A stretch of 64,000 nucleotides of DNA, from NCBI GenBank assembly GCA_029263455.1, contig JAJCXM010000003.1, forward strand, positions 124,001 through 188,000, in the 5' to 3' direction. Shown piece after piece: positions 75 to 15,069 of the stretch (the stretch's first letter is position 1; the number at the start of each line of letters is the position of its first letter). The DNA is from Holophagae bacterium. Its GTDB lineage: Bacteria; Acidobacteriota; Holophagae; Acanthopleuribacterales; Acanthopleuribacteraceae. A program made the position numbers and the translations under genes. The notes under the pieces were generated by a model that worked only from the letters and a program-made list of their open reading frames with translations, was not told the DNA's origin and did not search any database.

Positions 75-1715
75 TTGAACTGGGGAAATCCAACACATCA
101 GGTAGAGAATCAACCGCAACCGCCTGGCGAACAGAACCTGTGGCTGGACGACCCAATACTTCGGAACTTGGTCGCGAGTAGCGACGCACAGTGGATACAA
201 AATGAGGCCAAACAATTTGGCGCCCTAATGGGTCATCCCAAAACCACTTTTTTAGCGAGCGAAGCCAATCGTTTTCCGCCCGAACTTCACACCCACGATA
301 AATATGGCCATCGAATCGACGAGGTGACCACCCATCCATCTTGGCACGAGCTCATGGCCATCGCCGTTGAAAACAAACTGCATAACCTGCCCTGGCTGCA
401 ATCAAGCACGGCCGGTCACCAAGCGAGAGCTGCGATGTTTTACCTATTCAATCAAGTTGAGAATGGCGTCGCCTGTCCCATGTCCATGACTTACGCTGCG
501 GTCCCTTCTTTGTGTCAAGAGCCAAACCTATATGAGACGTTGCGCCAGGGTTTAGATAGTCACATTTATGATCCGAGCTTTGTGCCGATGAAGCAAAAGA
601 AAGGCATATTGTTGGGTATGGCTATGACCGAAAAACAAGGTGGCTCCGATGTTCGCAGCAATACCACATTTGCCCAGCAACAAGCGGACGGTCATTTTCG
701 GCTAACTGGCCATAAATGGTTCTGTTCCGCGCCCATGTGCGACGGATTCTTAACGCTTGCCCAAACCGACGCAGGACTAACTTGCTTCTTTGTCCCTCGC
801 TGGGAACCCGATGGAACGCGTAACCGAATGCTTATCCAGCGACTCAAGAACAAATTAGGAAATCGTTCGAATGCCTCCAGCGAAATTGAGTATGACCAAG
901 CGTATGCTCAGTTGGTTGGTGATCAAGGTCGAGGTATCGCGGTAATTCTCAATATGGTCTCGCATACAAGACTAGACTGTGTGGTTGGGTCGGTGGGCAT
1001 GATGCGTGCTGGCATTCGACTTGCTTTTCAGCATGTCTCAGGACGCAGTGCATTCGGCAAACGACTTATTGATCAACCTCTTATGCAACAGGTACTAAGT
1101 GACCTGGTAATTGAATGGGAAGCCTCGCTTAGATTTGCCTGGTTGATGGCGGGAACCTATGACAGTGAAGACGCCGAAACACGTGATTACGGGCGCCTAC
1201 TCACTGCGATTGGTAAGTTTTGGGTGTGCAAGCGCACGCCTGCTGTTGTCGCAGAAACATTAGAGTGTTTGGGAGGGGCCGGCTTCATCGAAGAGCACCA
1301 TCTCGCACGCTTTTACCGTGAAGCCCCGCTCAACTCGATTTGGGAAGGCAGTAGCAACGTGATTGCTTTGGACATCATCCGCACCTGCACTCGCCTGCCC
1401 GGTGTTCTTGAACAATTTATGTCGCAAATGCAGCGCACACAGGGAGAGAACAAAGGTTTCGATCGTGCTCTAGAATCGCTACCAGAGACCTACCGGTTGG
1501 CTGTCGCAGATCAAGCGTATGCGCGTCAATTCGCCTGCCTTTTGGCCCAGCTAATACAAGCTCAGCTCATGTTAGCTGAAGGCTCAACTTGTGTCGGTGA
1601 TGCCTTTATGACGACACGGTTTTCTCTCAATGAAACGTCGCCAGTTTTTGGTGCGCAAAGGATACCTAACACCGCAGCTATTCTGCGCTCAGCTTTCTCG
1701 GAGGAATTCGATTGA
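75..1715 (+). CDS. aidB: AidB-like acyl-CoA dehydrogenase family flavoprotein
   Basis: 546 residues, close to E. coli AidB (541). It belongs to the acyl-CoA dehydrogenase superfamily. The AidB-type signature GMAMTEKQGGSDVRSN appears here as LGMAMTEKQGGSDVRSN near residue 185, and the C-terminal block LGGAGFIEEHHLARFYREAP plus NSIWEGSSN near residue 425 is also AidB-like. AidB proteins bind FAD and are tied to the response to DNA alkylation; the physiological substrate is unsettled, so a plain acyl-CoA dehydrogenase role is possible. The start is TTG at 75 with GAGG about 8 bases upstream. The stop overlaps the TTG start of selU (TTGA), so the two are translationally coupled. Confidence 0.82.
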   Translation: MNWGNPTHQVENQPQPPGEQNLWLDDPILRNLVASSDAQWIQNEAKQFGALMGHPKTTFLASEANRFPPELHTHDKYGHRIDEVTTHPSWHELMAIAVENKLHNLPWLQSSTAGHQARAAMFYLFNQVENGVACPMSMTYAAVPSLCQEPNLYETLRQGLDSHIYDPSFVPMKQKKGILLGMAMTEKQGGSDVRSNTTFAQQQADGHFRLTGHKWFCSAPMCDGFLTLAQTDAGLTCFFVPRWEPDGTRNRMLIQRLKNKLGNRSNASSEIEYDQAYAQLVGDQGRGIAVILNMVSHTRLDCVVGSVGMMRAGIRLAFQHVSGRSAFGKRLIDQPLMQQVLSDLVIEWEASLRFAWLMAGTYDSEDAETRDYGRLLTAIGKFWVCKRTPAVVAETLECLGGAGFIEEHHLARFYREAPLNSIWEGSSNVIALDIIRTCTRLPGVLEQFMSQMQRTQGENKGFDRALESLPETYRLAVADQAYARQFACLLAQLIQAQLMLAEGSTCVGDAFMTTRFSLNETSPVFGAQRIPNTAAILRSAFSEEFD

Positions 1716-2770
1716 AACCTTATTACCCTCCGATTGACGCCGACCAGGCTCTAAAACAGCTCGAGACTAATTTTGATTCATTCAGTTGGCTAGACGTTCG
1801 TTCAGAGAAAGAGTTTGAGGCAGGTGAAGTACCTGGTTTCAGCAATGTACCCATCTTAACAACACGTGAACGTCACGAGGTGGGTATCTGTTTTAAGGCC
1901 AAAGGTCAACAGGAAGCGATCGACCTTGGCCAAAAGATCGTCGCACCGTTTCGACAGAGCCGTGTCGAAAACTGGCTGAAGCTAGCTCAAGGACGCCCTA
2001 TCCGCGTGGCATGTTGGCGTGGAGGATTACGTTCCAAAATTGCCGTTCAATGGTTGAACGAATCCGGCGCAGACGTCTGCCGCATCGCTGGTGGCTATAA
2101 AGCCATTCGCCGACTGCTCTTGAACCGTCTTTCAGAACTTCCCACAATCATTGTCATTGGCGGCTTGACTGGCTCAGGCAAGACCGAACTTCTGCATCAA
2201 ACAAGCGCCAGTATCGATTTAGAGGCGCTTGCCAATCATCGAGGAAGTTCTTTTGGTAAGCAGCCATCTAATCAGCCAAGCCAATGTACATTTGAAAACA
2301 AACTCCTCATGCAATTAGCGGGCAAGCAAAAGCAAGTCTTCATCGAGGACGAGAGTCCAAGAATTGGGCGCGTTCAACTTCCAAACGAAATTATTTCAGG
2401 GCTTCGTCGCTCAGTCGTTGTTTGGCTAGACGCGCCGGTTAATGAGCGTATTGAAAGAATATTCACAGAATACGTAGCCAAACCAACTCAGGTCAGTGGC
2501 AGCGTTGATACTCATTTACAGTTACGTGCCAACTTGTTACATATACGTGAGCAGCTCGGTGGTCTCAGATATTGCGAAATACGTGACCTAATGGATCAGG
2601 CATTTGCCGCCGAACTCAATGTCGACAGTCATCGTGGCTGGATCGAACGCTTACTAAAAGAATATTATGATCCACGTTATCAATATTCGTTCGAGCGCCA
2701 CCAACGTAAGGTGGTATTTCAAGGAGATTTGAATTCATGTCAGCAATGGATACGAAACCAACACGACTGA
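1712..2770 (+). CDS. selU: tRNA 2-selenouridine synthase (SelU/MnmH)
   Basis: 352 residues. An N-terminal rhodanese domain carries the reactive cysteine at Cys101 in the motif ACWRGGLRS. A C-terminal P-loop domain follows, with GGLTGSGKT at residues 150-158. This two-domain layout is diagnostic for the enzyme that replaces sulfur with selenium in wobble 2-thiouridine of Lys, Glu and Gln tRNAs, through a geranylated intermediate and with selenophosphate as donor. The start is TTG at 1712 with GGAGG upstream, inside the stop of the preceding gene. The next gene, selD, supplies selenophosphate and begins 34 bases before this stop, so donor synthesis and use are coupled. Confidence 0.95.
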   Translation: MKPYYPPIDADQALKQLETNFDSFSWLDVRSEKEFEAGEVPGFSNVPILTTRERHEVGICFKAKGQQEAIDLGQKIVAPFRQSRVENWLKLAQGRPIRVACWRGGLRSKIAVQWLNESGADVCRIAGGYKAIRRLLLNRLSELPTIIVIGGLTGSGKTELLHQTSASIDLEALANHRGSSFGKQPSNQPSQCTFENKLLMQLAGKQKQVFIEDESPRIGRVQLPNEIISGLRRSVVVWLDAPVNERIERIFTEYVAKPTQVSGSVDTHLQLRANLLHIREQLGGLRYCEIRDLMDQAFAAELNVDSHRGWIERLLKEYYDPRYQYSFERHQRKVVFQGDLNSCQQWIRNQHD

Positions 2771-3783
2771 CCCAGATGGTAAAGAAAGGTGGCTGCGCAG
2801 CCAAGCTGCCTGCTTCAACTCTACGACACGTTTTGGCCGCACTTAAATTAAATAGTCCAAAAGAATTGATTGTGGGCAGCCAAACATTTGATGACGCAGC
2901 CTTATTCGATTTGGGAGATGGACGGACGCTTATCCAAACGGTCGATTTTTTTACCCCGATCGTTGATGACCCCTATGATTTTGGTGCAATAGCGGCCGCA
3001 AACGCGCTAAGTGACGTGTTCGCCATGGGTGGCACAGCTTCGACAGCGCTGACAATACTGGGATTCCCGGCAGCCACATTAGATGTATCCCTAATTGAAC
3101 CCTTAATGACTGGCGCATTAGATCGTATTCATGCGGCAGGCGCGTGCCTTGCTGGCGGACACAGCATTGAGAATGACGCTCTTCTATTAGGATTTTCTGT
3201 GGCCGGCTTCGTGAATCGCGATCAAGCATGGCTAAACTCAGGTGCCCGGCCCGGTGACCATCTCATTCTGACTAAAGGCATAGGTACCGGGACAATTACC
3301 TCAGCATTGAAATTGGATAAGGCCCAGGACGATTGGGTGCACGGCGCCGTAAAGAGCATGACGCTATTGAATGCGAGCGCCGATCTGCTAGTAGGACTCA
3401 ATATTCACAGCGCCACGGACATTACCGGATTCTCATTGGCCGGCCATGCCATGCAAATGGCGAACGCCAGCCAAGTTTCGTTGGAAATTGACACATCTGC
3501 CGTGCCTGTATTGGCAGGTGCTTTGGCCTGCATTGGCGCAGGCGTCCTCAATCGCGCGCATCATACAAATCTTGATTATGTACGCAATCATGTTGATCTT
3601 AGCCAGATAGACGATGCAACGAAATGGCTTATGGTCGATCCGCAAACTTCTGGTGGCTTATTGTTCGCGGTCGCTGCTGACATCTCGCAGCAAGTGGTTG
3701 ATCGGTTGCAACCCAGATTTCCAGACGTGAAAATGATTGGTGTGGTTGAACCCGCGGATTCGACGTCAGTTCGGTTTCGCTGA
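2737..3783 (+). CDS. selD: Selenide, water dikinase (selenophosphate synthetase)
   Basis: 348 residues, the usual SelD length. It makes selenophosphate from selenide and ATP. The N-terminal active-site segment KKGGCAAKL has Cys20 and Lys23 at the positions of E. coli Cys17 and Lys20; the residue is Cys, not selenocysteine. The ATP-binding region DDAALFDLGDGRTLIQTVDFFTPIVDDPYDFG (around residues 48-80, abbreviated here to its core) is conserved, as is the C-terminal DPQTSGGLL. ATG at 2737 has AAGGAG about 10 bases upstream. No selA, selB or tRNA-Sec is in the window, so the visible use of selenophosphate is SelU-dependent tRNA modification. Confidence 0.96.
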   Translation: MSAMDTKPTRLTQMVKKGGCAAKLPASTLRHVLAALKLNSPKELIVGSQTFDDAALFDLGDGRTLIQTVDFFTPIVDDPYDFGAIAAANALSDVFAMGGTASTALTILGFPAATLDVSLIEPLMTGALDRIHAAGACLAGGHSIENDALLLGFSVAGFVNRDQAWLNSGARPGDHLILTKGIGTGTITSALKLDKAQDDWVHGAVKSMTLLNASADLLVGLNIHSATDITGFSLAGHAMQMANASQVSLEIDTSAVPVLAGALACIGAGVLNRAHHTNLDYVRNHVDLSQIDDATKWLMVDPQTSGGLLFAVAADISQQVVDRLQPRFPDVKMIGVVEPADSTSVRFR

Positions 3784-4172
3784 TGTCAAAGAGAAAAGGT
3801 CAAAAGCCATCAAAAATGAAGGTAGACCAACTGCAGGAACTCAGCCACAACCCATTTGCCAGCTTATCAAATCAGATTGAGGTTACGGCCCAAAAGCCGG
3901 CTGAAACACGCCAGCCAGCCCAGGTCCAGAAAGAACAAGAGCATCCCAATTCAGTCTCAATTTATGTCCGCTTTGAGAAACGTAAGAATGGCAAGCTGGT
4001 AACGTGTCTCCGTCAATTCCAAGGTGATCAAATGGCACTGTTAAAGCAATTGCGCAAGAAACTAGCCACCGGTGGCACCATTGAAGATCGCGTGATTATT
4101 ATTCAGGGTAATCATGTCACGCGAGTCATTGAAATGTTAAAAGAACAAGGGTACCGAACTCGCGGGTCTTAA
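3783..4172 (+). CDS. SUI1/YciH-family translation factor-like protein
   Basis: 129 residues. A basic, disordered N-terminal tail of about 55 residues precedes a SUI1-type domain (about 58-129). Its recognisable parts are VRFEKRKNGKLVTCLRQF, the KLATGGTIEDRVIIIQG core (TGGT followed by the IQG-N-H strand) and a final helix. The family includes eukaryotic eIF1 and bacterial YciH, which acts on start-codon fidelity or represses initiation under stress. ATG at 3783 overlaps the selD stop (TGATG), so it is the last gene of the coupled operon. It ends three bases before the convergent kinase gene. The family is clear; the role in this operon is inference. Confidence 0.85.
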   Translation: MSKRKGQKPSKMKVDQLQELSHNPFASLSNQIEVTAQKPAETRQPAQVQKEQEHPNSVSIYVRFEKRKNGKLVTCLRQFQGDQMALLKQLRKKLATGGTIEDRVIIIQGNHVTRVIEMLKEQGYRTRGS

Positions 4173-4175
4173 AAG

Positions 4176-7100
4176 CTACTTTTGTCGTTCTAACTGTCTG
4201 ATCCGTTTGCCTGCTTCTTTTTGCCAATGTGGGATCAAAGCCTGGTTCGAAACGCGATGTATTTGTTGCCAATATCTCAATTCATTGTCTCGATCTCCCA
4301 ATTCGGCCCATTGATTGGCGCCACGGACATAATTTTCAATAGCTAGATCGTCGTTTGACATGTCTTCGTATTGAAGCGCCAATTTATACAGTGATAGGGC
4401 TGCGAATTTCATTTCGTCGATCCTGAGCCACAAATCAATGGCCTTATTTAGTTCAGCCACTGCTTCCAAGCCATTATCTTGGCGGGCAAAACACTGCGAG
4501 AGTAATTCTCTAGAAACGGCGACCTTTCTCCATTGTTGGCAGGCTTCATAATTAGAAATGGCCTCAGTTAGCTTAGCGATGGATTGCGACAGATCACCCG
4601 ACGCCCGATGCAACCCAGCTTCTTGATACAGAACATCGGCAAGTTGGTTTTGGTATTGTTGACGTGTCAGCAATTCTGATTCACCTTCAATTAAGTCGTG
4701 ATAACTCCGAGAAGCAAGTGCGTACAAACCCAAATCGAAATAGAGAGGAGCCAAAATCGACACACATTCTAGCCAAGCAGTATCGTTGTTTTGAGAACGA
4801 AATAGCGAAGCAGCCATTTCTATTTCTTGTCGCGCTTTGACAACATCCGTGTCAGAAAGCGCCTTTATTCCCCAAATACGGTGTGCCCATGCTTGATCGA
4901 TGGCGGTCCAACTGCCTTGAATCCGAGAAAACGGAGCGAGCGCTTGTTCCGCCTCTAAATGATTGCCTCTTATCATATGAGATTGAGCTTCAATTACAGA
5001 TTTTTGCGCCTGAAACGTCTCCTCAAGCGTCCGGCAGGCTTGTAGCTCGTTGACCAATTCGTGTATCTCCTGCCATCGACTTTGTTCTTGGTAAAAACGC
5101 GCCAAATCGAGTCGGACACGACAGGCGGACTCATTTTCGCCACTCTTGGAGTAACGAAGGATTGACGTCGCCAAATAGGATTCCTGGCTGGAATTTCCGG
5201 AGTATCGCGCGCATTTGGCCAAAAAGTGGGCTGCCTTTGCCATCTCATGATCATCGCTATTGGCGTCATCGTAAACACTTAGCGCAAGCCTTTCGCCTTC
5301 GGCGTTTTTTCCGAGATCCAGCTTAACCTCGGCTAAAACTAACTTTCCTAACCGCTGTTCAGTGCGGTTTTTCTCTTGCCAGATATGTAACGCCAGCATC
5401 AATTCTTGCTCACTCTCATGCAATCGATTCAAGTCGAACAAAACGATGCCGATATTATGCCGCGTGCGCGCCTCTCCGATAAGATCACCCGCTTGCTGAT
5501 AGGCCGAAAGGCCTTGAGCAAATAATTTCAATGCTTGTTCGGGGTCGCGCAATGCAATAAAGGCCTGAGCTTCGTCTGAAATCGCGCCTGCCGTCAAGAG
5601 CTGGCGGGTTGGCGTTGCTAGACTCGGAGTTGAACTCTGCTGTGGTTCTGCGATGCTTGCGTTAGGAAATTTGTCGGTTAATTGCGCCAATATTTCGATT
5701 GTATTCTGATCAACCGATGACGTTCCAGACGTCCGGAAAAGCGATTGGAATGAACGAACCAATGCCGAAAATTCGTCAATTATGTCTACATAACGATCGA
5801 ATTCCTGCTTTGCCAACGAGTCAGGTACGAGAGACATCGAGCGATCGAGAGAAGCCAAAGCCAACGATTGCTCGCCTGCCGCTGCCTGAGCCAAAGCGAG
5901 CCATAAATGTATCTTGGGTTCTTCGTTCTGTTCTGCGGCTGCCCGATTAAGAACGTCAATTGCACGGGTAATTTCCATTGACCACAAAGCTCGACGCCCT
6001 TCTTCAAATAGGACTAGGCTCTCCTCGTGTCCGGGCTGCATTAACTGGAAATCTTCGATATTGGGTGGCAGTCGGTGATTTGCCTTGGAAAAAGCTATCA
6101 CCGCGTCATTAATCAAAATAGCGAGATCATCAGCATTCTGCTCGAAAGCGAAGGCGTACCTACCGCGCTCAGATTCCATCGCCCTTAACTCAAAATGGTA
6201 TTTAGGAGAGGTTTTTCTCACATCTAAATTGGCGCTGAACGACCAACTTGCTCCGACTTGTTTAGCAATTATTTGTTGTAGTTTAAGTGTTGGCTGACTG
6301 TTGAGTTCAAAACCACTCTCCAGATAAGCACGTTCAAGCCGTTCCTCTGAAACCATTGAAGATTCTTCAATCTTTGCTAGCGACTCGGATAGCCGTGTTG
6401 TCGCCCATCGTGCAAGCCATGTTCGATCATCGTCACCAAGATTGACCAACACTGGTGTCAATGACATGACCAACGGCTCAGCATTCTTAACTGCTGGCGC
6501 ATTAGCGATCGTGACACGTTCATTCGTGTCTTTGAAAAAGAACACCGCCAAACTTGATAGCGCAAGGAAAAGACCTGTAGCTAGCCATAGCTTAACTGGC
6601 AGGACCCTTTCTTCAGACAGCTGCACAAGCAACGATTCCGCAGACTGGAATCGATCGGATTGTTGACGTTTGAGGCATTTTAAGATGACACGATTACTTT
6701 GGCGTGAAAGATCAGGGCGCTTACGGATGGGCGCAACGGGGTCGTGCACCAGTCTCATGAGCGCGGTCTGGATCATATTCTCGGCAATGAAAGGAACTTG
6801 GCCGGTTACCAACTGATAAAAAACGCAGCCTAATGCATAGATATCGGTCGTGCGGTTAAGAGCTCCACCGTCAACCTGTTCAGGTGCCATAAATGCTGGG
6901 GTTCCCACAAACTGGTCCATGCCGCCTACGGTCGTGAAAAAATGGCCATCGGCTTGAATCGTACGCGCTAAGCCGAAGTCAGTTACAACGGCTCTCAATC
7001 CTTGCTCCTCTGGAACCATCAACACGTTAGCGCTCTTAAGGTCTCCGTGAATAACGCCTGCATCATGCGCTGCGGCTAAGCCACTCGCTATTTGCGCCAC

Positions 7101-7547
7101 GATGTCTTTTGCCTCGTTTTCTTCTAGAACGCCTCGGTCAGCGATCAATTGCTCGAGTGATTGTCCTAACAATAACTCCATGGTCAGAAAAGTGACATCG
7201 CCTCCAAACCAACCCCTATCTAGTCGTGGCTCTAAGTCATGAAAGCCAACATCAAAAATACGGCACACATTGGGATGAGTAACCCTGCGAGCCAACTGAA
7301 TTTCTCGCTTAAATCGTTCCACATGTTTGGGATTATTAGCCGTATCAACCCGGATTGCCTTTAAAGCAATATGGTCGTTTAATTGTTGGTCCAACGCCTC
7401 GTATACAACACCCATGGCGCCATGATTTATATAGCGAATAATCAAATAGCGAGAGGCAATGACGTCGCCTGGATGGAACAAGGCAATTCTATGGCGGCCT
7501 TCTAGATTCACATTACCCGTCGCCGACACTTCGAACTCCGTTTTCAC
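4176..7547 (-). CDS. Transmembrane Ser/Thr protein kinase with C-terminal TPR array
   Basis: 1123 residues. A Hanks-type kinase domain occupies about residues 32-310: glycine-rich loop GAMGVVYEA, Lys63, Glu82, catalytic loop HGDLKSAN (Asp169, Asn174), DFG at 190-192 and APE at 221-223. The catalytic Asp is preceded by Gly rather than Arg (HGD, not HRD), suggesting control that does not depend on an activation-loop phosphate. One membrane helix (about 319-338) follows. The remaining 780 residues, probably periplasmic, are rich in tetratricopeptide-like helical pairs in the last 500. The start is GTG at 7547; the nearest upstream in-frame stop is seven codons away and no strong ribosome site is seen. 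The four minus-strand genes upstream probably belong to the same pathway. Confidence 0.9.
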   Translation of the reverse strand: MKTEFEVSATGNVNLEGRHRIALFHPGDVIASRYLIIRYINHGAMGVVYEALDQQLNDHIALKAIRVDTANNPKHVERFKREIQLARRVTHPNVCRIFDVGFHDLEPRLDRGWFGGDVTFLTMELLLGQSLEQLIADRGVLEENEAKDIVAQIASGLAAAHDAGVIHGDLKSANVLMVPEEQGLRAVVTDFGLARTIQADGHFFTTVGGMDQFVGTPAFMAPEQVDGGALNRTTDIYALGCVFYQLVTGQVPFIAENMIQTALMRLVHDPVAPIRKRPDLSRQSNRVILKCLKRQQSDRFQSAESLLVQLSEERVLPVKLWLATGLFLALSSLAVFFFKDTNERVTIANAPAVKNAEPLVMSLTPVLVNLGDDDRTWLARWATTRLSESLAKIEESSMVSEERLERAYLESGFELNSQPTLKLQQIIAKQVGASWSFSANLDVRKTSPKYHFELRAMESERGRYAFAFEQNADDLAILINDAVIAFSKANHRLPPNIEDFQLMQPGHEESLVLFEEGRRALWSMEITRAIDVLNRAAAEQNEEPKIHLWLALAQAAAGEQSLALASLDRSMSLVPDSLAKQEFDRYVDIIDEFSALVRSFQSLFRTSGTSSVDQNTIEILAQLTDKFPNASIAEPQQSSTPSLATPTRQLLTAGAISDEAQAFIALRDPEQALKLFAQGLSAYQQAGDLIGEARTRHNIGIVLFDLNRLHESEQELMLALHIWQEKNRTEQRLGKLVLAEVKLDLGKNAEGERLALSVYDDANSDDHEMAKAAHFLAKCARYSGNSSQESYLATSILRYSKSGENESACRVRLDLARFYQEQSRWQEIHELVNELQACRTLEETFQAQKSVIEAQSHMIRGNHLEAEQALAPFSRIQGSWTAIDQAWAHRIWGIKALSDTDVVKARQEIEMAASLFRSQNNDTAWLECVSILAPLYFDLGLYALASRSYHDLIEGESELLTRQQYQNQLADVLYQEAGLHRASGDLSQSIAKLTEAISNYEACQQWRKVAVSRELLSQCFARQDNGLEAVAELNKAIDLWLRIDEMKFAALSLYKLALQYEDMSNDDLAIENYVRGANQWAELGDRDNELRYWQQIHRVSNQALIPHWQKEAGKRIRQLERQK

Positions 7548-7670
7548 AATCGAGCTGCAAGTCTAGTCATAAAACTTAGCTAAGCGCTCACTGGTGATTC
7601 TAACGGAAAAATACAAGATCGCACCCATTCAATCAGAATACGATAGCCTGACATCGACTGGCTGGCCGAT

Positions 7671-8423
7671 TCAACGAGATTTATCTTGCGTTAAACGGGC
7701 AATCAATCGTTTGGCATACACCGAAATTCTGGGATCCATTTTGAGGACATCAAGATCATGCTGACTTAAGCCTTTAAGCAGTGGCAGAATCGCGTAGTTG
7801 GGTGTCCTAGGATGAACGATCAACGCACGAGTAACATCCTTCAAGCGCGCCCATTTTGGGATCTGGGCCAAGGTGGCAAGAGCTGTTGTTGACGTCTTTG
7901 GGTACGAGGCTACAAACATCGCGTCCTCATAGGTGAAATAGTTGTGACGAAATGTTATTCGAAGAACCTGAGCTTCGTTTTGAGTGCGCAGAACTCTGAT
8001 CAAGGGTCTAACGGCTCGCCGTGCCAATGAGACACGTTCACCTAGCGTCATTCTTGGAAGACGTTCCTCAATGATTTGCACACCGCGATTCACCATCATG
8101 CCTGATAGCCTTGGTTGCCGCAGCACATTAAGTAAGTCACCCCACCTCAACGTGTTCATCATTGCCAAGGCAATGGCGGGCGGCGTTTTTACATGTTTAA
8201 CGATTGCCAGCCCAATATTGTAGTGTCTTCTCAGTTCGCGATTCTGATAAATCTCGCGAATCGCCTCCGTCTCAATGGCACGTGACCGAGATAAGAAAAT
8301 AACGACCCACTTACTGGTAAAAGACGGGTGATTGAGTAGTTTATCCCAGTCGGGTCGATCTTGTTCGTTTAGAAGCGCGACAACTTTTTCTTCGCTAACA
8401 AATGGCATGGGGATCGGCCTCAC
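7671..8423 (-). CDS. Conserved-looking alpha-helical repeat protein of unknown function
   Basis: 250 residues, not recognised with certainty. It is basic and almost wholly helical, without a signal peptide or membrane segment. Short repeated blocks such as LLNHPSFTSKW, VASYPKTSTTALATLAQ and ALIVHPRTPNYAILPLLKGL suggest HEAT-like or leucine-rich-variant helical repeats, so it may be a protein-binding scaffold. The GTG start at 8423 overlaps the TAG stop of the upstream DUF4388 gene (TAGTG). An ATG five codons downstream has GAGG at good spacing and could be the true start. Its place between a DUF4388 protein and a Ser/Thr kinase suggests a part in the same signalling locus. Confidence 0.75.
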   Translation of the reverse strand: MRPIPMPFVSEEKVVALLNEQDRPDWDKLLNHPSFTSKWVVIFLSRSRAIETEAIREIYQNRELRRHYNIGLAIVKHVKTPPAIALAMMNTLRWGDLLNVLRQPRLSGMMVNRGVQIIEERLPRMTLGERVSLARRAVRPLIRVLRTQNEAQVLRITFRHNYFTYEDAMFVASYPKTSTTALATLAQIPKWARLKDVTRALIVHPRTPNYAILPLLKGLSQHDLDVLKMDPRISVYAKRLIARLTQDKSR

Positions 8424-9706
8424 TACTCGTTATCAGGGTCGTCAACCTCCTCAGACTTGATTAGATAGGTTTTTGTAAAGGCCAACTCGCGCTTATCGCG
8501 TCCATCAAGGTCAGTACCACTCAAAATATAGGTTTGTTCTTCTGGACGTAAACGATAGCTGTAGCGGCGTTCTTTGGGATCAAGTAAGTCATCAACATCA
8601 AGAAACCCTCTCTCAACAAGAACGTCCAATGTGATGGGTAGCTTTGATTCATTCAGAAAATACAAATCTAACGCATTTACGATGCGATTGAGTTTGGCAC
8701 CTGATGTTGGCACAAAAAAATTAACCGACGGTCCCAATTCCAACGGTGATGGGAACAATCGATTGATTGGGTTCCAACTGGTTAACAAACCTATTAACGC
8801 GACCAGGCCAAGAACGGCGCCAGGAATCCATGTAGGTAGAGTTTTCTGGTCTTCAAACTCCTCAACATCCTCGTGAATGATGACATCACTGACCCTACGC
8901 ACCATGTCAACTTCTATGAGGTCATACACGGCTCGGCAGGTTTCGAACTCATTCAAACGACTTTGATCAATAATCTTTTGCACCGAAGCGGGTCGATCGA
9001 TGAGTTTCAGCACGATTTCTTGTTCATGGGAAAGATTGGGGAGTTTCTCATTTAGGTGAGCGTCTTGTTCGTCGGCCATTACGCCTTCGAGTAGGTCATC
9101 GAAACTACCAATGGGTCCCGATTGAAAACTTAAATCTTTATCGATGTTCAGTTTAATACGGCGTCCCATCTCCGTCCGTTCAACGGAAACATCAAAGCTA
9201 GGTATGACCCTTTCGATCATGGGCCACTCGTCAATCATGCGAATACCTTCCATCAAAAGGCTCTCCGCACTCATGGGACTGAAGTTCTCCTGGTCGTAAT
9301 CGATATATCTTTCTTGGCGAAAATGATAATCGCCATCTATCCACCTAAATAGGCGATAGATAATTTCGCTGACTTGCATCTGCAGCGAGTCTTTAAGGTC
9401 CTCTTTCTTGATGAACCCTTTCGAGATAAGCACTTGACCTAGTCGTTGCAGTGTCGAATTTTGAACTACAAGTGCTTGCTCCAATTCAGACTGAGATATG
9501 CGATTGGTCTTCACCAAAACGTGACCAAGTCGGTTTTCCAGCTTCTGATTGTCGGTATCGGCCCCCACAACCATGCCGTTAATAAACGAAATCGTGGCTA
9601 TTTCTTTGCCATTTCTCAGCGTCAAAACGCCCGTTTTTCGCTGAATGCCAATTAACTGAAAGATATCGGCGAGGGAAAAGTCCTTTAGGGTTCCTTCTAA
9701 TGCCAT
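8423..9706 (-). CDS. DUF4388 (PATAN-like) protein with MshEN-like repeats and a membrane anchor
   Basis: 427 residues. A DUF4388 domain occupies residues 1-55 (MALEGTLKDFSLADIFQLIG, then GVLTL and a FINGMVVGA strand). Two blocks of the type LGxxLVxxxxIxxxxLxxAL follow at about 60-115, as in the N-terminal domain of GspE/MshE-type proteins, some of which bind cyclic di-GMP. A winged-helix-like segment lies at about 222-272, a membrane helix at 293-310, and a 115-residue C-terminal part resembles a pseudopilin-like or small globular domain. The ATG directly follows the stop of the upstream gene, with GGGAGGA as ribosome site. The domain set fits an adaptor in a motility or signalling system; exact function unknown. 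Confidence 0.8.
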   Translation of the reverse strand: MALEGTLKDFSLADIFQLIGIQRKTGVLTLRNGKEIATISFINGMVVGADTDNQKLENRLGHVLVKTNRISQSELEQALVVQNSTLQRLGQVLISKGFIKKEDLKDSLQMQVSEIIYRLFRWIDGDYHFRQERYIDYDQENFSPMSAESLLMEGIRMIDEWPMIERVIPSFDVSVERTEMGRRIKLNIDKDLSFQSGPIGSFDDLLEGVMADEQDAHLNEKLPNLSHEQEIVLKLIDRPASVQKIIDQSRLNEFETCRAVYDLIEVDMVRRVSDVIIHEDVEEFEDQKTLPTWIPGAVLGLVALIGLLTSWNPINRLFPSPLELGPSVNFFVPTSGAKLNRIVNALDLYFLNESKLPITLDVLVERGFLDVDDLLDPKERRYSYRLRPEEQTYILSGTDLDGRDKRELAFTKTYLIKSEEVDDPDNE

Positions 9707-11548
9707 CTAGTCCTCCCGCCAGATGCCGCGAAACCCAAAAATTAACCAGAAGAACGCGGTGGTGCCCCAAACAAAAACTTGAACAACCATGAAGTCATTG
9801 ACATAACTCATAAAGGGATAGGGAATCTCGCGCAAACTCGAAAAGGAAAACACGAGCAAACATACCCAAAACCAAGCAGTAATGGAGCCAGACCACGTCG
9901 ATCCTCGATAAATGGCTTTTGCGCCTGGTAGCAACGTCTGGCTAATGTTGACAAAACGTTTCTTTAGCCTACTGAACCGCTGCACTTCTTCATATTTCTT
10001 CAGTTTCGCTTCGCTCGGTAAATCATCTTTTCTCACATAGAGGTTCACGCACTGGCTGCACCAAGCGTGGCTAGGCGAATCGGGCACATAATATATATTG
10101 CCGCATTTGTTACATGACTTTCCTAAGAAGCGTGGGTTTCTTGAACGCTCGTGGAAAATCGCGAAACCAAGGGCAAGCAAGACTAGGACGATTGTTGAAA
10201 TGGCGATTGGTTTCTTAAACCAGGTCACCAAATCTGGAATGCCGCTTCCAAATGCAGCTCGTGTCAGACTCTTTAAAGGACTGTATTCGATTTCCACGGT
10301 GTCTGTTTCAGACTCGCCCCTGAGGTAGATCTCTTCGATCAATCGCGGGTCTGCTTGCTTTGCACGTCGCAAAAATGTTTCTGCATCACGGTGTTCGCCG
10401 ATACGACTCTTGGCAACACTCAAGTTGTAAAGCGTAATACTCGATTTTGGGATGACGCGCAAAGTTGATTCATATGCCGTTATCGCTCTTTGATATTCAT
10501 GTCCCTTGAGATAAATATTCCCTTTGTTGACTTCAGCCAGAGGGCCGTAGTCGGAAGATTTATCCACTTTTTCGTAATATTCTAGGGCTAAATTATCGTC
10601 ACCTGTTTCGTGGTAGGCGCGCGCCAAGGCGAAATACAATCCATTACTGGTATCGCCATCTGCCTCTTTAGCTTCGAGCCGATCAACCTGCAGCCTAGGG
10701 TCGCCCTGAAAAAAGTGGGCAACTTGCAATCTCGTTTCACTACTGGCACGCGCTAAAGCAATATTGTGAACGACAAAGAGCAGTAACACTGAAAGCAAAT
10801 AATTGGCTACCAGAATTCCGGATACTAACTTTTCCTTGCGATGCAGAAACGGATAAACCATCACCCAGTAATACAAAGCAGCAACAAGAACGTTTAAACC
10901 CAAAACCCACGGCGCCAGAAAGACTGCACCTGTAACTGTCGCTTGGACTGGTCGACTCCAGTCCGAGTTTTCCAGAAAGGAAACGGTTGTGGCATAAACA
11001 CTGCGACAGTATTTGGCGAAAAATAAACCCACAACACACACCAAGCCCCATTTCAATGCAAGTAACAGGCGTTCAAGTAACCAAAACAACACATCCATTA
11101 GGAAGAAGGTGTTTTTCACACTGAACGCATAACGCAATCCCTTAAGGCTCAGAGATACGTAGTACAGATAATCATGATCTAGCTCTTTCTTGACACGAGC
11201 TAAACCCGTGTAGGCGGGCCACATATAAGGATTCAGTTGCGCACAGTTAAGAAATTCACGACGGGCTTCGTCATAATTACCGAGGTCCAATTCCCGGTTG
11301 CCCTCTGCCAAGAATAAAATCGCTGCCTGCTCGTAAATCTTTCCGGACGAGCCCTTTGCCTCGTCTCGAAGTCGGTCAAATGCCACTTTTTGGGCATCAA
11401 CATCGCCTTGGCCTTTGGCTTCAAGGTAAAGGTCCCACTGAAGCGCCACAGTCTCTTCCGCAGACATAGCTGTAGCATCCGTTTGCGCGAGCAGCGGGAA
11501 ACTCACATAAACAATGACAAATAAGGCGCTTTTAATGACGCCGTGCAT
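9707..11548 (-). CDS. TPR membrane protein with a zinc ribbon
   Basis: 613 residues. A signal peptide or first membrane helix covers about residues 5-21, followed by a TPR-like segment (about 70-120). Several hydrophobic helices lie between about 150 and 270. A second TPR block (about 300-400, with the typical LARAYHETGDDNLALEYYEK pattern) follows, then another membrane helix near 450. A four-cysteine zinc ribbon, CNKCGN then CSQC with 19 residues between the pairs, sits near 475-505, and two membrane helices close the chain. Such proteins occur beside DUF4388 genes in deltaproteobacterial and acidobacterial genomes, but no reaction is known. It abuts the downstream DUF4388 gene without a gap, which implies co-expression. 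Confidence 0.75.
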   Translation of the reverse strand: MHGVIKSALFVIVYVSFPLLAQTDATAMSAEETVALQWDLYLEAKGQGDVDAQKVAFDRLRDEAKGSSGKIYEQAAILFLAEGNRELDLGNYDEARREFLNCAQLNPYMWPAYTGLARVKKELDHDYLYYVSLSLKGLRYAFSVKNTFFLMDVLFWLLERLLLALKWGLVCVVGLFFAKYCRSVYATTVSFLENSDWSRPVQATVTGAVFLAPWVLGLNVLVAALYYWVMVYPFLHRKEKLVSGILVANYLLSVLLLFVVHNIALARASSETRLQVAHFFQGDPRLQVDRLEAKEADGDTSNGLYFALARAYHETGDDNLALEYYEKVDKSSDYGPLAEVNKGNIYLKGHEYQRAITAYESTLRVIPKSSITLYNLSVAKSRIGEHRDAETFLRRAKQADPRLIEEIYLRGESETDTVEIEYSPLKSLTRAAFGSGIPDLVTWFKKPIAISTIVLVLLALGFAIFHERSRNPRFLGKSCNKCGNIYYVPDSPSHAWCSQCVNLYVRKDDLPSEAKLKKYEEVQRFSRLKKRFVNISQTLLPGAKAIYRGSTWSGSITAWFWVCLLVFSFSSLREIPYPFMSYVNDFMVVQVFVWGTTAFFWLIFGFRGIWRED

Positions 11549-11633
11549 GACCGATGCCCCAACCCTGTTTGATGCAAAATACTAACATACCAGGTAATTG
11601 GGATAAAGAGAAAGAGCCGAGGATGGTCGTCAA

Positions 11634-12458
11634 CTAGGTTGGATGCAGCAGCGGCTTAATTAGCACTTTTTCGCCGACTGCAATTTCTAATTGGTCCATT
11701 ATTTCTCTCGGTATCATGATGCGATCCGGCGATACGCCATTCTTGGAGATGAAATTCACCTGACCATAGTTGTGTTTAGCCGTTCTGATCTCTAATGAGT
11801 CGCAATCACCATACACAACCGACTCTGAATTCCAATCATCCACTAATACTGATGACAGTACGACATCGGTCGCTTTACCAAACAGCTTCTTGTAAACCTC
11901 TACTTCTAGTAGTTTGAAAATGTCGACGCGCTTCAGCTGACCCCGCTGCTCTAAGTCGTAAATAATATAAAGTACTTCGAATGCACCTTTGTTAGACGTT
12001 TCAATAGCTTCACGAATATCAGCCTGTCCATCGAGACTACTTAACACGGTTAATTCGTCCTGTTTGAAACCCTTGGCAAGATGCGGGATCCTAATATCCA
12101 CCAAAGGCAGATAAACAATATTGTCATGCAATATGGATGTGCGGATTTTTCCAATCGTATCTTTACGTCGCGCGGCTTCCAAAACGAGATCATGGATCGA
12201 GCGCGAGAACAGCCGATTGGCGTTGTGAGCGGCCATCTGGAAGAAAAACTTTCCTTCATGTTGTGCAAGTAACACGTAAGCCGCTGCCTCGCCCACCATG
12301 CCCTCAACTTCGGCATTGATGATCTCGCCATCGGTGTAATATAACTTGCCCTTCAATGAAGGGTTTTCGATATGCAGGATGCCGTTAGAGCGATTGATAT
12401 TTAGCAGCTGAACGATGTCTTGAATATCTACACTATCGAGACTGCCTTCAATGGCCAT
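11634..12458 (-). CDS. DUF4388 protein with an AbrB-like C-terminal segment
   Basis: 274 residues, soluble. Residues 1-95 are a DUF4388 domain: MAIEGSLDSVDIQDIVQLLN, NGILHI, a GKLYYTDGEIINAEV strand pair and a helical tail. The middle (about 130-180) has a winged-helix-like pattern with two clauses, ELTVLSSLDG and AFEVLYIIYDLEQRG. The last 27 residues, around DRIMIPREIMDQLEIAVGEKV, match the RIxIPxEIxxxLxIxxGxxV pattern of AbrB/MazE swapped-hairpin domains. That match is visual only. The gene lies between lpxC upstream and the TPR/zinc-ribbon gene downstream, on the same strand. Confidence 0.78.
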   Translation of the reverse strand: MAIEGSLDSVDIQDIVQLLNINRSNGILHIENPSLKGKLYYTDGEIINAEVEGMVGEAAAYVLLAQHEGKFFFQMAAHNANRLFSRSIHDLVLEAARRKDTIGKIRTSILHDNIVYLPLVDIRIPHLAKGFKQDELTVLSSLDGQADIREAIETSNKGAFEVLYIIYDLEQRGQLKRVDIFKLLEVEVYKKLFGKATDVVLSSVLVDDWNSESVVYGDCDSLEIRTAKHNYGQVNFISKNGVSPDRIMIPREIMDQLEIAVGEKVLIKPLLHPT

Positions 12459-12540
12459 GAACCACCCGGAATTTAGTTTAGCTTACCCTATCCCAAGCGT
12501 TTAGCCATTGTCAACTGCTAACGAACCTAGCTCGTTTGCT

Positions 12541-13449
12541 TCACGAATGAGCCAAAACGGGACTCGCCTGCGCCGATACCACTTCTTCGTCCGCTGTCAT
12601 CTCAACCACGTCGTATGCGCTGCTTTCCGCCAACAATGCAGTGAGGAAGCGAGCATGCACTTCGTGCCCTGCTTTGATTGCATGAAATGCGCCCCGAATT
12701 CGCATGCCGCACATCGCCATATCCCCTACAAAATCGAGGATTTTGTGGCTCACAAACTCATCGTGGCTGCGAAGTCCTTCATTAAGAACACTGTCGCCAT
12801 CCAAAACAATTGCATTTTCTAAACTACCACCACGGATCAATCCCATCTTCTTTAAGGTGTTGACATCACTCAAAAAGCCAAAAGTTCTGGCTCGCGCAAT
12901 CTGGCTGTCATATGTATTAGATCCCAAAGAACAGGTCTTTTTCTGATGACGAATCAAGGGATGATCAAATTCAATCTCATAGGTAACTCGATAGTCACGA
13001 GCAGGTTTGGCAATCACCGAGCGACCGCGATCGCTGAACTCGAACGCTTTTCGTATCACCATTTCGCGACGCGCCACTGCTTGACGCTGTAAACCAGCTT
13101 CTTCAATTAAGTACAAAAAGGGCGACGCACTGCCATCCATTATGGGTATTTCGCCGCCATCCAAATAAACGGTCACATTATCAACACCCTTGGCATAAAG
13201 CGCCGACATCAAGTGTTCCGTTGTCTGTACGACGCACTCACCTTGTTTTAATACAGTTGCCAATTGCAGACACGAAAAATCGACGTGCTTAATATCGGCC
13301 TTAACGGAAAGTCCACCTAAGTCTGTGCGCACAAAAGTCACCCCGGAATTGGGTGGTGCTGGCGTTAAACGCATTTCGATCAGGCGTCCGGAATGTAGAC
13401 CCACACCCAACGCGCTAACTTCATTGTTTAATGTCCATTGTGCACTCAT
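12541..13449 (-). CDS. lpxC: UDP-3-O-acyl-N-acetylglucosamine deacetylase (LpxC)
   Basis: 302 residues from the ATG at 13449, which has GGAGG five bases upstream; the reading frame stays open for 18 more codons but without a better start. LpxC is the zinc hydrolase that commits UDP-sugar to lipid A synthesis. Zinc ligands are in place: His79 in TTEHLMSAL, His235 and Asp239 in SHKILDFVGD. The catalytic general acid is His262 in AGHEVHARF, and Glu78 is the general base. The gene shows that the organism makes lipid A. It reads in the same direction as rsgA upstream, with a 160-base gap in which I see no gene. Confidence 0.97.
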   Translation of the reverse strand: MSAQWTLNNEVSALGVGLHSGRLIEMRLTPAPPNSGVTFVRTDLGGLSVKADIKHVDFSCLQLATVLKQGECVVQTTEHLMSALYAKGVDNVTVYLDGGEIPIMDGSASPFLYLIEEAGLQRQAVARREMVIRKAFEFSDRGRSVIAKPARDYRVTYEIEFDHPLIRHQKKTCSLGSNTYDSQIARARTFGFLSDVNTLKKMGLIRGGSLENAIVLDGDSVLNEGLRSHDEFVSHKILDFVGDMAMCGMRIRGAFHAIKAGHEVHARFLTALLAESSAYDVVEMTADEEVVSAQASPVLAHS

Positions 13450-13611
13450 GGCAACCTCCGCAACTAACACGGAAGCAATTCGCGTGCCACAGACCCATAG
13501 CACTTAACACCTTTGTTTTAAACAACTTAATTACCAACATAACTGATGCTCGAACACACCTGTGTGAGTTGTACTACGCCCCACTCAGTGAACGTGTTGT
13601 TTATGCCACAG

Positions 13612-14547
13612 TCAATATCGACTACGCTCTCGCTGCATCATGTCTCCCACGATAAAGCGGTAGTTAGCATAGCGAAAGGCGGCGATATCACCCGCTCGCA
13701 CAGCTTCTCTGACCGCGCACCCTGGCTCTTCCAAGTGCTGGCAGGTCGTGAACTTGCAATCGCGCTGTGCTTCCCTAATCTCGACATAGCCAAACCGGAC
13801 CTGGTCAGGTTCGACTCGCGGCGGGAAAAAGTCCCGTAGCCCCGGAGAATCCACTAGGTAACCTTCGCCTTTGACAGGGATCAGAACCGAGGTCGTCGTT
13901 GTGTGACGTCCGCTTCCACTACGCTCATTGACCGCCCCCGTCACGAGCTTCGCCTTGGGAACAAGCCAATTGATCAAGGACGACTTACCGACGCCTGAAG
14001 TGCCGGCAAAAAGCGAGATCCCTGATTCAACCAGCGCCTGTAGTCTCCCTATGCCAAGATTATCTTTGACCGATGTTTCCAAGACAGGATAACCTAAGTC
14101 TTGGTAGGTCGTCAGTTCCTTCGCGTTCAATCTGGCGGGATTAAGATCCACTTTATTAATCACAATACACGCCGAAATATCCAAGAGCTCGCACGTCACC
14201 AAGAAACGATCAAGCATCGACCAATCAAGTCCTGGACGCTCGATGGCGCTGACGATCAGTGTTCTGTCCAAGTTGGCCGCCATTACCTTCTCGGTTTCAC
14301 GGGTATCCCCGATCGAACGCATTAATCGATTCTGGCGAGGCAGGATTTCAATCACGTAGCCTTCAACACCCCTCTCCTGCCCGGGTTCCAGCTCCACAAC
14401 GACGTGATCACCTATGACAGGAAGTCGATATTCAGCATCTTCATGCCGACGAATCTGACCCTTAGGCTGACAACGTACCCATCGTTTATCCACAATGACA
14501 TCGTAAAATCGATTCATTGTACGTCCAACTAAACCACGAACTTGCAT
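13612..14547 (-). CDS. rsgA: Ribosome small subunit biogenesis GTPase RsgA
   Basis: 311 residues. An N-terminal OB-fold (about 1-75) precedes a circularly permuted GTPase domain in which NKVDL comes before GTSGVGKSSLIN and then DSPGLRDF. A C-terminal zinc finger contains Cys in CKFTTCQHLEEPGC, with its His. RsgA acts in late maturation of the 30S subunit. A TTG at 14550 directly follows the stop of the upstream gene, but the next codon is ATG and is the likelier start. It is coupled to the thioredoxin-fold gene upstream. Confidence 0.95.
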   Translation of the reverse strand: MQVRGLVGRTMNRFYDVIVDKRWVRCQPKGQIRRHEDAEYRLPVIGDHVVVELEPGQERGVEGYVIEILPRQNRLMRSIGDTRETEKVMAANLDRTLIVSAIERPGLDWSMLDRFLVTCELLDISACIVINKVDLNPARLNAKELTTYQDLGYPVLETSVKDNLGIGRLQALVESGISLFAGTSGVGKSSLINWLVPKAKLVTGAVNERSGSGRHTTTTSVLIPVKGEGYLVDSPGLRDFFPPRVEPDQVRFGYVEIREAQRDCKFTTCQHLEEPGCAVREAVRAGDIAAFRYANYRFIVGDMMQRERSRY

Positions 14548-14550
14548 CAA

Positions 14551-15069
14551 TTAGAGATGTTCACGAAGGGCTCGACTCAATGATAAATCTAATTCAGTAG
14601 GATAGTGTTGTCGGGCAAATTCGGTCAAAGCTCGATCCTTGCTCTTTCCTTCACCCATCTGTTCGGAAACGTGGTCCGTAACCGATTGTGGTCGCGGTCC
14701 CCATAACTCCTTTACAGACCCATGTTTATCTAAAGAAAGCAATTTCGGAAAGCCTCGATCAAGCACGTCCGAAAACAACGGAAAGAAATACTCATAACAA
14801 AAGAAGCGAGTCACACATTGGCGAGATGTATGCAGCGTGGCTCCGATAAATGGTAACGAAACCACGGAGTCCAACGAATTGATGCTGTAAATCAAAACAA
14901 ATCTCCGCGCCTTTTGTTGATTAAGTATTTTCAATGACTTAAGCAGCAATGGAGGCTCTTGCACAGACTGCAAAAATGCATTTCTGTGTGCAAGCCACTC
15001 CTCCACGCATTCCCGCCATAATTGACCGCGTTGAAAGAGTCGATCGTTAAATTTAAAGTCCAATAGCAT
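14551..15069 (-). CDS. Thioredoxin-fold protein (Thioredoxin_9-like) without a CxxC
   Basis: 172 residues. The sequence YSINSLDSVVSLPFIGATL occupies the place of the redox loop, and WGPRP follows a KLLSLDKHGSVKE strand. The WGPRP block and the overall length suggest the small thioredoxin-like family found in firmicutes and others (Thioredoxin_9). No CxxC is present: the only cysteines are at positions outside the loop, so it is unlikely to be a dithiol oxidoreductase. ATG at 15069. It ends directly before rsgA, and the two are probably co-translated. Confidence 0.65.
   Translation of the reverse strand: MLLDFKFNDRLFQRGQLWRECVEEWLAHRNAFLQSVQEPPLLLKSLKILNQQKARRFVLIYSINSLDSVVSLPFIGATLHTSRQCVTRFFCYEYFFPLFSDVLDRGFPKLLSLDKHGSVKELWGPRPQSVTDHVSEQMGEGKSKDRALTEFARQHYPTELDLSLSRALREHL

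Follow-up and report, generated by a model that had tools for sequence, protein, structure and literature searches.

Most of what is known about how cyclic di-GMP (c-di-GMP) controls pili and secretion concerns motor ATPases and cytoplasmic adaptors. MshEN is the domain with which the ATPases of pili and of type II secretion systems (T2SS) bind the nucleotide (PMC5013675, Wang et al. 2016), and in Synechocystis the regulators that carry a PATAN domain contact the pilus motor proteins PilB and PilC (PMC12288463; PMC10519157). Here we describe a locus where both domains are found in one membrane protein. The locus covers positions 4176-12458 of a stretch of 64,000 nucleotides from a Holophagae bacterium (assembly GCA_029263455.1, contig JAJCXM010000003.1, positions 124,001 to 188,000), which we call the window. 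Its minus strand holds five open reading frames (ORFs), A-B-C-D-E in order of transcription; these five genes had been proposed in this order by a previous reading of the sequence alone (the sequence-only reading), and all of them are open. The core is formed by B (9707-11548, 613 aa) and C (8423-9706, 427 aa). The synteny, distribution, domain make-up and predicted fold of the pair were computed, and B-C is a real unit, an ancient two-gene inner-membrane module that extends across several phyla.

The N-terminal part of C is a PATAN/DUF4388 domain (residues 4-161, 9224-9697; PF14332 111.7 bits, cut-off 25), which is split by an inserted MshEN domain (residues 59-111, 9374-9532). The latter consists of two motifs of 24 residues separated by a spacer of 5 residues, which is the published 24+5+24 layout, and its key residues in the protein of the window are R59-L60-G61...L75...L79...Q82 and R88-L89-G90...L104...L108...Q111. 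With NF053729, the model of the MshE-related c-di-GMP motif, it reached 51.7 bits against a cut-off of 38. Both matches were found in the 67 homologues of C considered, with NF053729 at E≤0.001. Residues G61, L64, L75, Q82, G90, and L93 are invariant in the 67 proteins, while R59 is retained in 57, R88 in 62, and Q111 in 65 of them. The strict published pattern matched at least once in just 12/67 homologues because the glycine and the hydrophobic positions in the middle of the motif vary, and for this reason the profile and the structure were used instead. An AlphaFold2 model of C was obtained from the 67 homologues, with a mean predicted local distance difference test (pLDDT) of 86.8. In this model, residues 54-138 aligned with the c-di-GMP-bound MshE (5htl_B) at 0.6 Å over 55 columns, with 45% identity and Z 6.9. 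The Foldseek probability of this match was 1.00 but its E-value was 0.23; considering that each domain is a small share of the 427 residues, the E-values for the whole model are weak (at least 0.15) and the weight is carried by the alignments of the individual domains. By sequence and fold, the MshEN of C is a full c-di-GMP-binding domain, in support of the MshEN-like repeats noted in the sequence-only reading, and we infer from sequence and model that C binds c-di-GMP.

Downstream of this part, C has a winged-helix region (residues 166-278, 8873-9211) with Z up to 8.4 versus winged-helix chains, a single predicted transmembrane (TM) helix at residues ~292-310 (8777-8833; located by hydropathy and by a helix of the model at 293-310), and a pseudopilin-like domain, predicted to be periplasmic, at residues 326-419 (8450-8731). 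This last domain resembled PulG (Z 10.2) and EpsG (Z 8.9; 2.3 Å over 82 residues), and the pLDDT of the model is mostly 94-98 there. The family T2SSG matched 31/67 homologues (E≤0.01); the score of Pfam T2SSG on the tail of the window protein was 13.6 bits, below the cut-off of 21, and the tail of the sister genome gave 21.2. A search for a site of the prepilin peptidase, with Glu5 where the TM helix begins, found none in the C of the window, and the pattern appeared in 2/67 homologues, in neither of them at the TM start. Taking this into account, the domain is pilin-like but C is not a pseudopilin, and neither processing nor polymerisation in the manner of a pilin is expected.

By comparison with the MshEN proteins described so far (MshE, PilB/PilF, NfrB), C has the same pair of RLG...L...L..Q motifs, the same spacer and the 5htl fold, but its MshEN sits in PATAN/DUF4388, in one chain with a winged helix, a TM helix and a pseudopilin-like domain, and it has neither ATPase nor glycosyltransferase (PMC5013675). 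It shares PATAN/DUF4388 with the cyanobacterial PATAN response regulators, PixG and others (PMC12288463); unlike them, it is membrane-bound, has no receiver domain, carries MshEN and a pilin-like tail, and is always paired with B. The major pseudopilins GspG, PulG, and EpsG share with C the fold of its C-terminal domain, whereas the long cytoplasmic N-terminal part, the missing cleavage motif and Glu5, and the T2SSG score below cut-off in the window set C apart from them. In the open literature, with subscription papers and preprints outside the search, neither a PATAN-MshEN-pilin fusion nor the B-C pair was found described, in agreement with the sequence-only reading, which knew of no system of such make-up. 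Myxococcus xanthus was reported to have 17 MshEN proteins (PMC8844925), and this set probably includes a homologue of C.

To obtain the distribution of the pair, named genomes were scanned with the alignment of C, which gave 80 loci. In the 79 that could be tested, B is directly upstream of C; the remaining one (L074) is untestable for B because C lies at the contig end. The gap between both genes was -1 to 22 bp at 62 of the 63 junctions measured. These loci span Acidobacteriota, Myxococcota, other deltaproteobacteria, Rokubacteria, and Nitrospiria. At E≤1e-40, C was detected in 66/149 sampled genomes of Acidobacteriota and in 60/77 of Myxococcota, usually as a single copy. Among 20 loci inspected in Myxococcota, 18 passed the automatic test of B-C adjacency, and inspection placed B directly before C in the other two. 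The closest named relatives of C are found in 'Acidobacteria bacterium HKST-UBA04', Sulfidibacter corallicola, and Acanthopleuribacter pedis; together with the kinship to other genomes, they assign the window to the family Acanthopleuribacteraceae (Acidobacteriota, class Holophagae). In much of Acidobacteriota and Myxococcota, C is near single-copy and constantly paired with B, and C homologues occur in culturable Myxococcota and Geothrix-like bacteria. A DUF1844 gene is often upstream of B in the named loci; across L043-L115 it is located ~2.7 kb upstream of C, and except for families f1 and f3 this is the usual arrangement in Acidobacteriota.

The model of B (pLDDT 89.1; predicted template modelling score 0.84) shows a signal peptide followed by a block of tetratricopeptide repeats (TPRs). 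Several TM helices separate this block from a second one, after which come a TM helix, a zinc ribbon, and a TM hairpin. The TPRs were also found by Pfam. The zinc ribbon, already noticed in the sequence-only reading, corresponds to residues 479-500 (10049-10114, minus strand); its CxxC...CxxC pattern is present in 79/79 B proteins, and the four cysteines are invariant in the alignment. When B was used in a structure search, known structures matched the TPRs only, in a search that barely covered the membrane part and the zinc ribbon. According to the positive-inside rule, the TPRs would lie in the periplasm and the zinc ribbon in the cytoplasm; this membrane topology and the contact between B and C are predicted rather than observed.

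Taking these features together, we tentatively favour, with somewhat less than even confidence, that B-C is a transmembrane switch that responds to c-di-GMP and whose target is probably a type IV pilus or a type II secretion machine. C would bind c-di-GMP on the cytoplasmic side via the MshEN inserted in PATAN/DUF4388, and its bound state would be relayed across the one TM helix to the periplasmic pseudopilin-like domain. B would be the constant partner, whose TPRs would hold the pilin-like domain of C in the periplasm and whose zinc ribbon would stay close to the cytoplasmic part of C. Considering that MshEN belongs to pilus and T2SS ATPases, that PATAN regulators contact PilB and PilC, and that the tail of C has a pseudopilin fold, a type IV filament machine seems the likeliest target, although this assignment is speculative. 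The likeliest output would then be control of a type IVa pilus or of type II secretion: the PATAN of C might contact PilB/PilC, the motor, in the way known from cyanobacteria, and the pilin-like domain, which is tethered and not cleavable, might dock on the pseudopilus or block it. The most specific version, possible but rather doubtful, is that intracellular c-di-GMP moves or exposes this tethered domain in order to start, cap or block the filament machine, B acting as a clamp in the periplasm and as an adaptor in the cytoplasm; such a mechanism would be undescribed and cross-phylum. If true, a receptor linked across the inner membrane to a pilin-like domain would represent a different route for the c-di-GMP signal, and DUF4388 proteins of a widespread group would gain a candidate function.

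The genome of the window has 22 GGDEF domains and encodes PilB and PilT. In the Acidobacteriota and Myxococcota sampled, C never occurs without PilT; however, PilT is near-universal and its loss in Myxococcota is tied to small genomes, so this co-occurrence is confounded, though consistent with the proposed target. Other observations also weigh against a switch on a filament machine. In the first MshEN copy of the window protein, Asn68 and Arg69 take the places of the glycine and the hydrophobic residue of the published motif. The tail of C in Holophagaceae and in family f3 is short and, in sequence, not recognisably pilin-like. At no locus inspected do pilus or secretion genes adjoin B-C, whose flanks are dnaK, phoH with a gene for a 7TMR-HD protein, mazG, or other housekeeping genes. 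These flanks lead to another explanation, in which B-C senses the state of the envelope through c-di-GMP and acts directly on neither pili nor secretion; sensing or anchoring in the periplasm would be the task of the pilin fold, and the output would be envelope or protein homeostasis. It agrees with the absence of pilus genes from the surroundings of the pair and with a C tail that differs strongly among families. In addition, dnaK is directly downstream of C in 29/80 named loci (for example, L054:11345-13294 and L085:11361-13283), followed in L085 by an hsp20-like gene and a sigma factor, and in Myxococcota phoH and a 7TMR-HD protein come after C (L138:3407-8398, L141:6767-11577). Nevertheless, the neighbours vary by lineage, so that no single pathway is indicated, and known proteins with MshEN, with PATAN or with the pseudopilin fold point in each case to filament machines. 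We consider envelope sensing rather unlikely.

Genes A and D are lineage-specific additions to B-C. A (11634-12458, minus strand, 274 aa) encodes a soluble DUF4388 protein (PF14332 61.0 bits, cut-off 25). D (7671-8423, minus strand, 250 aa) encodes a soluble protein with the appearance of helical repeats, for which no family of Pfam or NCBIfam was above cut-off; within the class, its conservation and its place after C are limited to two families. The order A-cheZ-B-C-D, without E, was found in Sulfidibacter, Acanthopleuribacter, and two metagenome-assembled genomes of the family. The order in Holophagaceae is mostly DUF1844-B-C, and family f3 has B-C-x, with D as the next gene in three genomes among those inspected. 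The gene that lies between A and B in the sister genera encodes a HAMP-CheZ protein (PF04344 47.2 and 38.7 bits, cut-off 30.7), with a stretch D-x-x-x-Q (DITRQ) that resembles the phosphatase motif of CheZ. HAMP-CheZ adjoins A-type DUF4388 genes in other Holophagae (L017:5992-6969, L019:10810-11787, L121:4714-5658, and L122:3107-4036); a Geothrix-type genome and G002 have it beside an A homologue.

This arrangement would fit a chemotaxis or flagellar control operon, in which A and C act with CheZ on a CheY-type regulator, and the presence of HAMP-CheZ coincides with that of FlhA in 13/13 genomes. HAMP-CheZ and FlhA are both absent from the window genus and from family f3, yet this genus and this family keep B-C. 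Furthermore, A-cheZ is apart from B-C in the Geothrix-type genome, and G002 has B-C-D by itself with A-cheZ elsewhere in the genome. Since the pair is kept in genomes without FlhA, B-C is independent of flagella, and a flagellar/CheZ operon was ruled out as its core, although it can hold for A; for the whole set we give this explanation hardly any credence. Considering that HAMP-CheZ tracks FlhA and that the window genus lacks both, A is probably what is left of a chemotaxis/flagellar branch, or a part of it that has been rewired. The sequence-only reading had seen the DUF4388/MshEN part of C; it missed the pseudopilin-like domain, the pairing of B and C across phyla, and the CheZ partner of A. 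A DUF4388 paralogue of ~374 aa was observed at L123:5469-6593 (G000, contig 8) and L124:4816-5937 (G001); by eye, its neighbours in both genomes are an aldehyde-dehydrogenase-like gene on one side and a dnaG-like gene two genes on.

Gene E (4176-7547, minus strand, 1123 aa) encodes a Ser/Thr kinase with a TM segment and a TPR array. Its kinase domain (6636-7436; PF00069 167 bits) conserves the catalytic motifs IALK60, HGDLKSAN167, DFG190, and APE221. The sequence-only reading proposed that the five proteins could be a membrane signalling complex with the kinase as output. A single complex with E as output finds support in these motifs and in L016, the second genome of the genus, where A-E are all kept in order, together with lpxC, rsgA, pgsA, and others. 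Nonetheless, L016 is the only other locus where E is beside D, and in the other relatives inspected E was not at this position, with A-B-C-D or B-C-D kept as a block in the rest of the family; such a lack of conserved neighbours, seen here for E, is what the sequence-only reading had named as refuting its proposal; D and E are separated by 123 bp; and the identity of E between the congeners is 39%, the lowest of the five, versus 56-82% for A-D. The genome also has ~50 kinases of this type (52 matches, E≤1e-20), so that one kinase neighbour is weak evidence. Given a position limited to the genus, many kinase relatives and the lowest conservation, E is a recent, genus-level neighbour outside the conserved module, and a single five-protein complex with E as output is very unlikely. 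The idea of a conserved membrane signalling module is retained and its kinase output is not: as to gene order in relatives, B-C is conserved, A and D partly, and E only in L016, and a five-gene kinase system as a conserved unit was rejected. A role in anti-phage defence was also discarded, PADLOC matching the kinase domain of E alone and through generic kinase models.

The locus has two tight junctions, B/C with 0 bp and C/D with one base in common. The sequence-only reading counted a third, which does not exist, since A/B has 85 bp and D/E the gap mentioned above; lpxC and A are separated by 82 bp. Its domain calls were recovered by Pfam and NCBIfam, which found DUF4388 (A, C), the MshE-related motif (C), TPRs (B, E), and the kinase (E). 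An Rfam search of 3700-13700 gave no structured RNA match, and scans of the locus for promoters and terminators gave numbers of sites not above those of shuffled sequence. Beside rsgA, at 14551-15069, there is an ORF of 172 aa without a confident family match, with 66% identity in the sister genome. At the other side, a SUI1-like gene that ends at 4172 is convergent with E. This gene belongs to a plus-strand run of overlapping selU-, selD-, and SUI1-like genes at 1712-4172, which has the same order in the sister genome.

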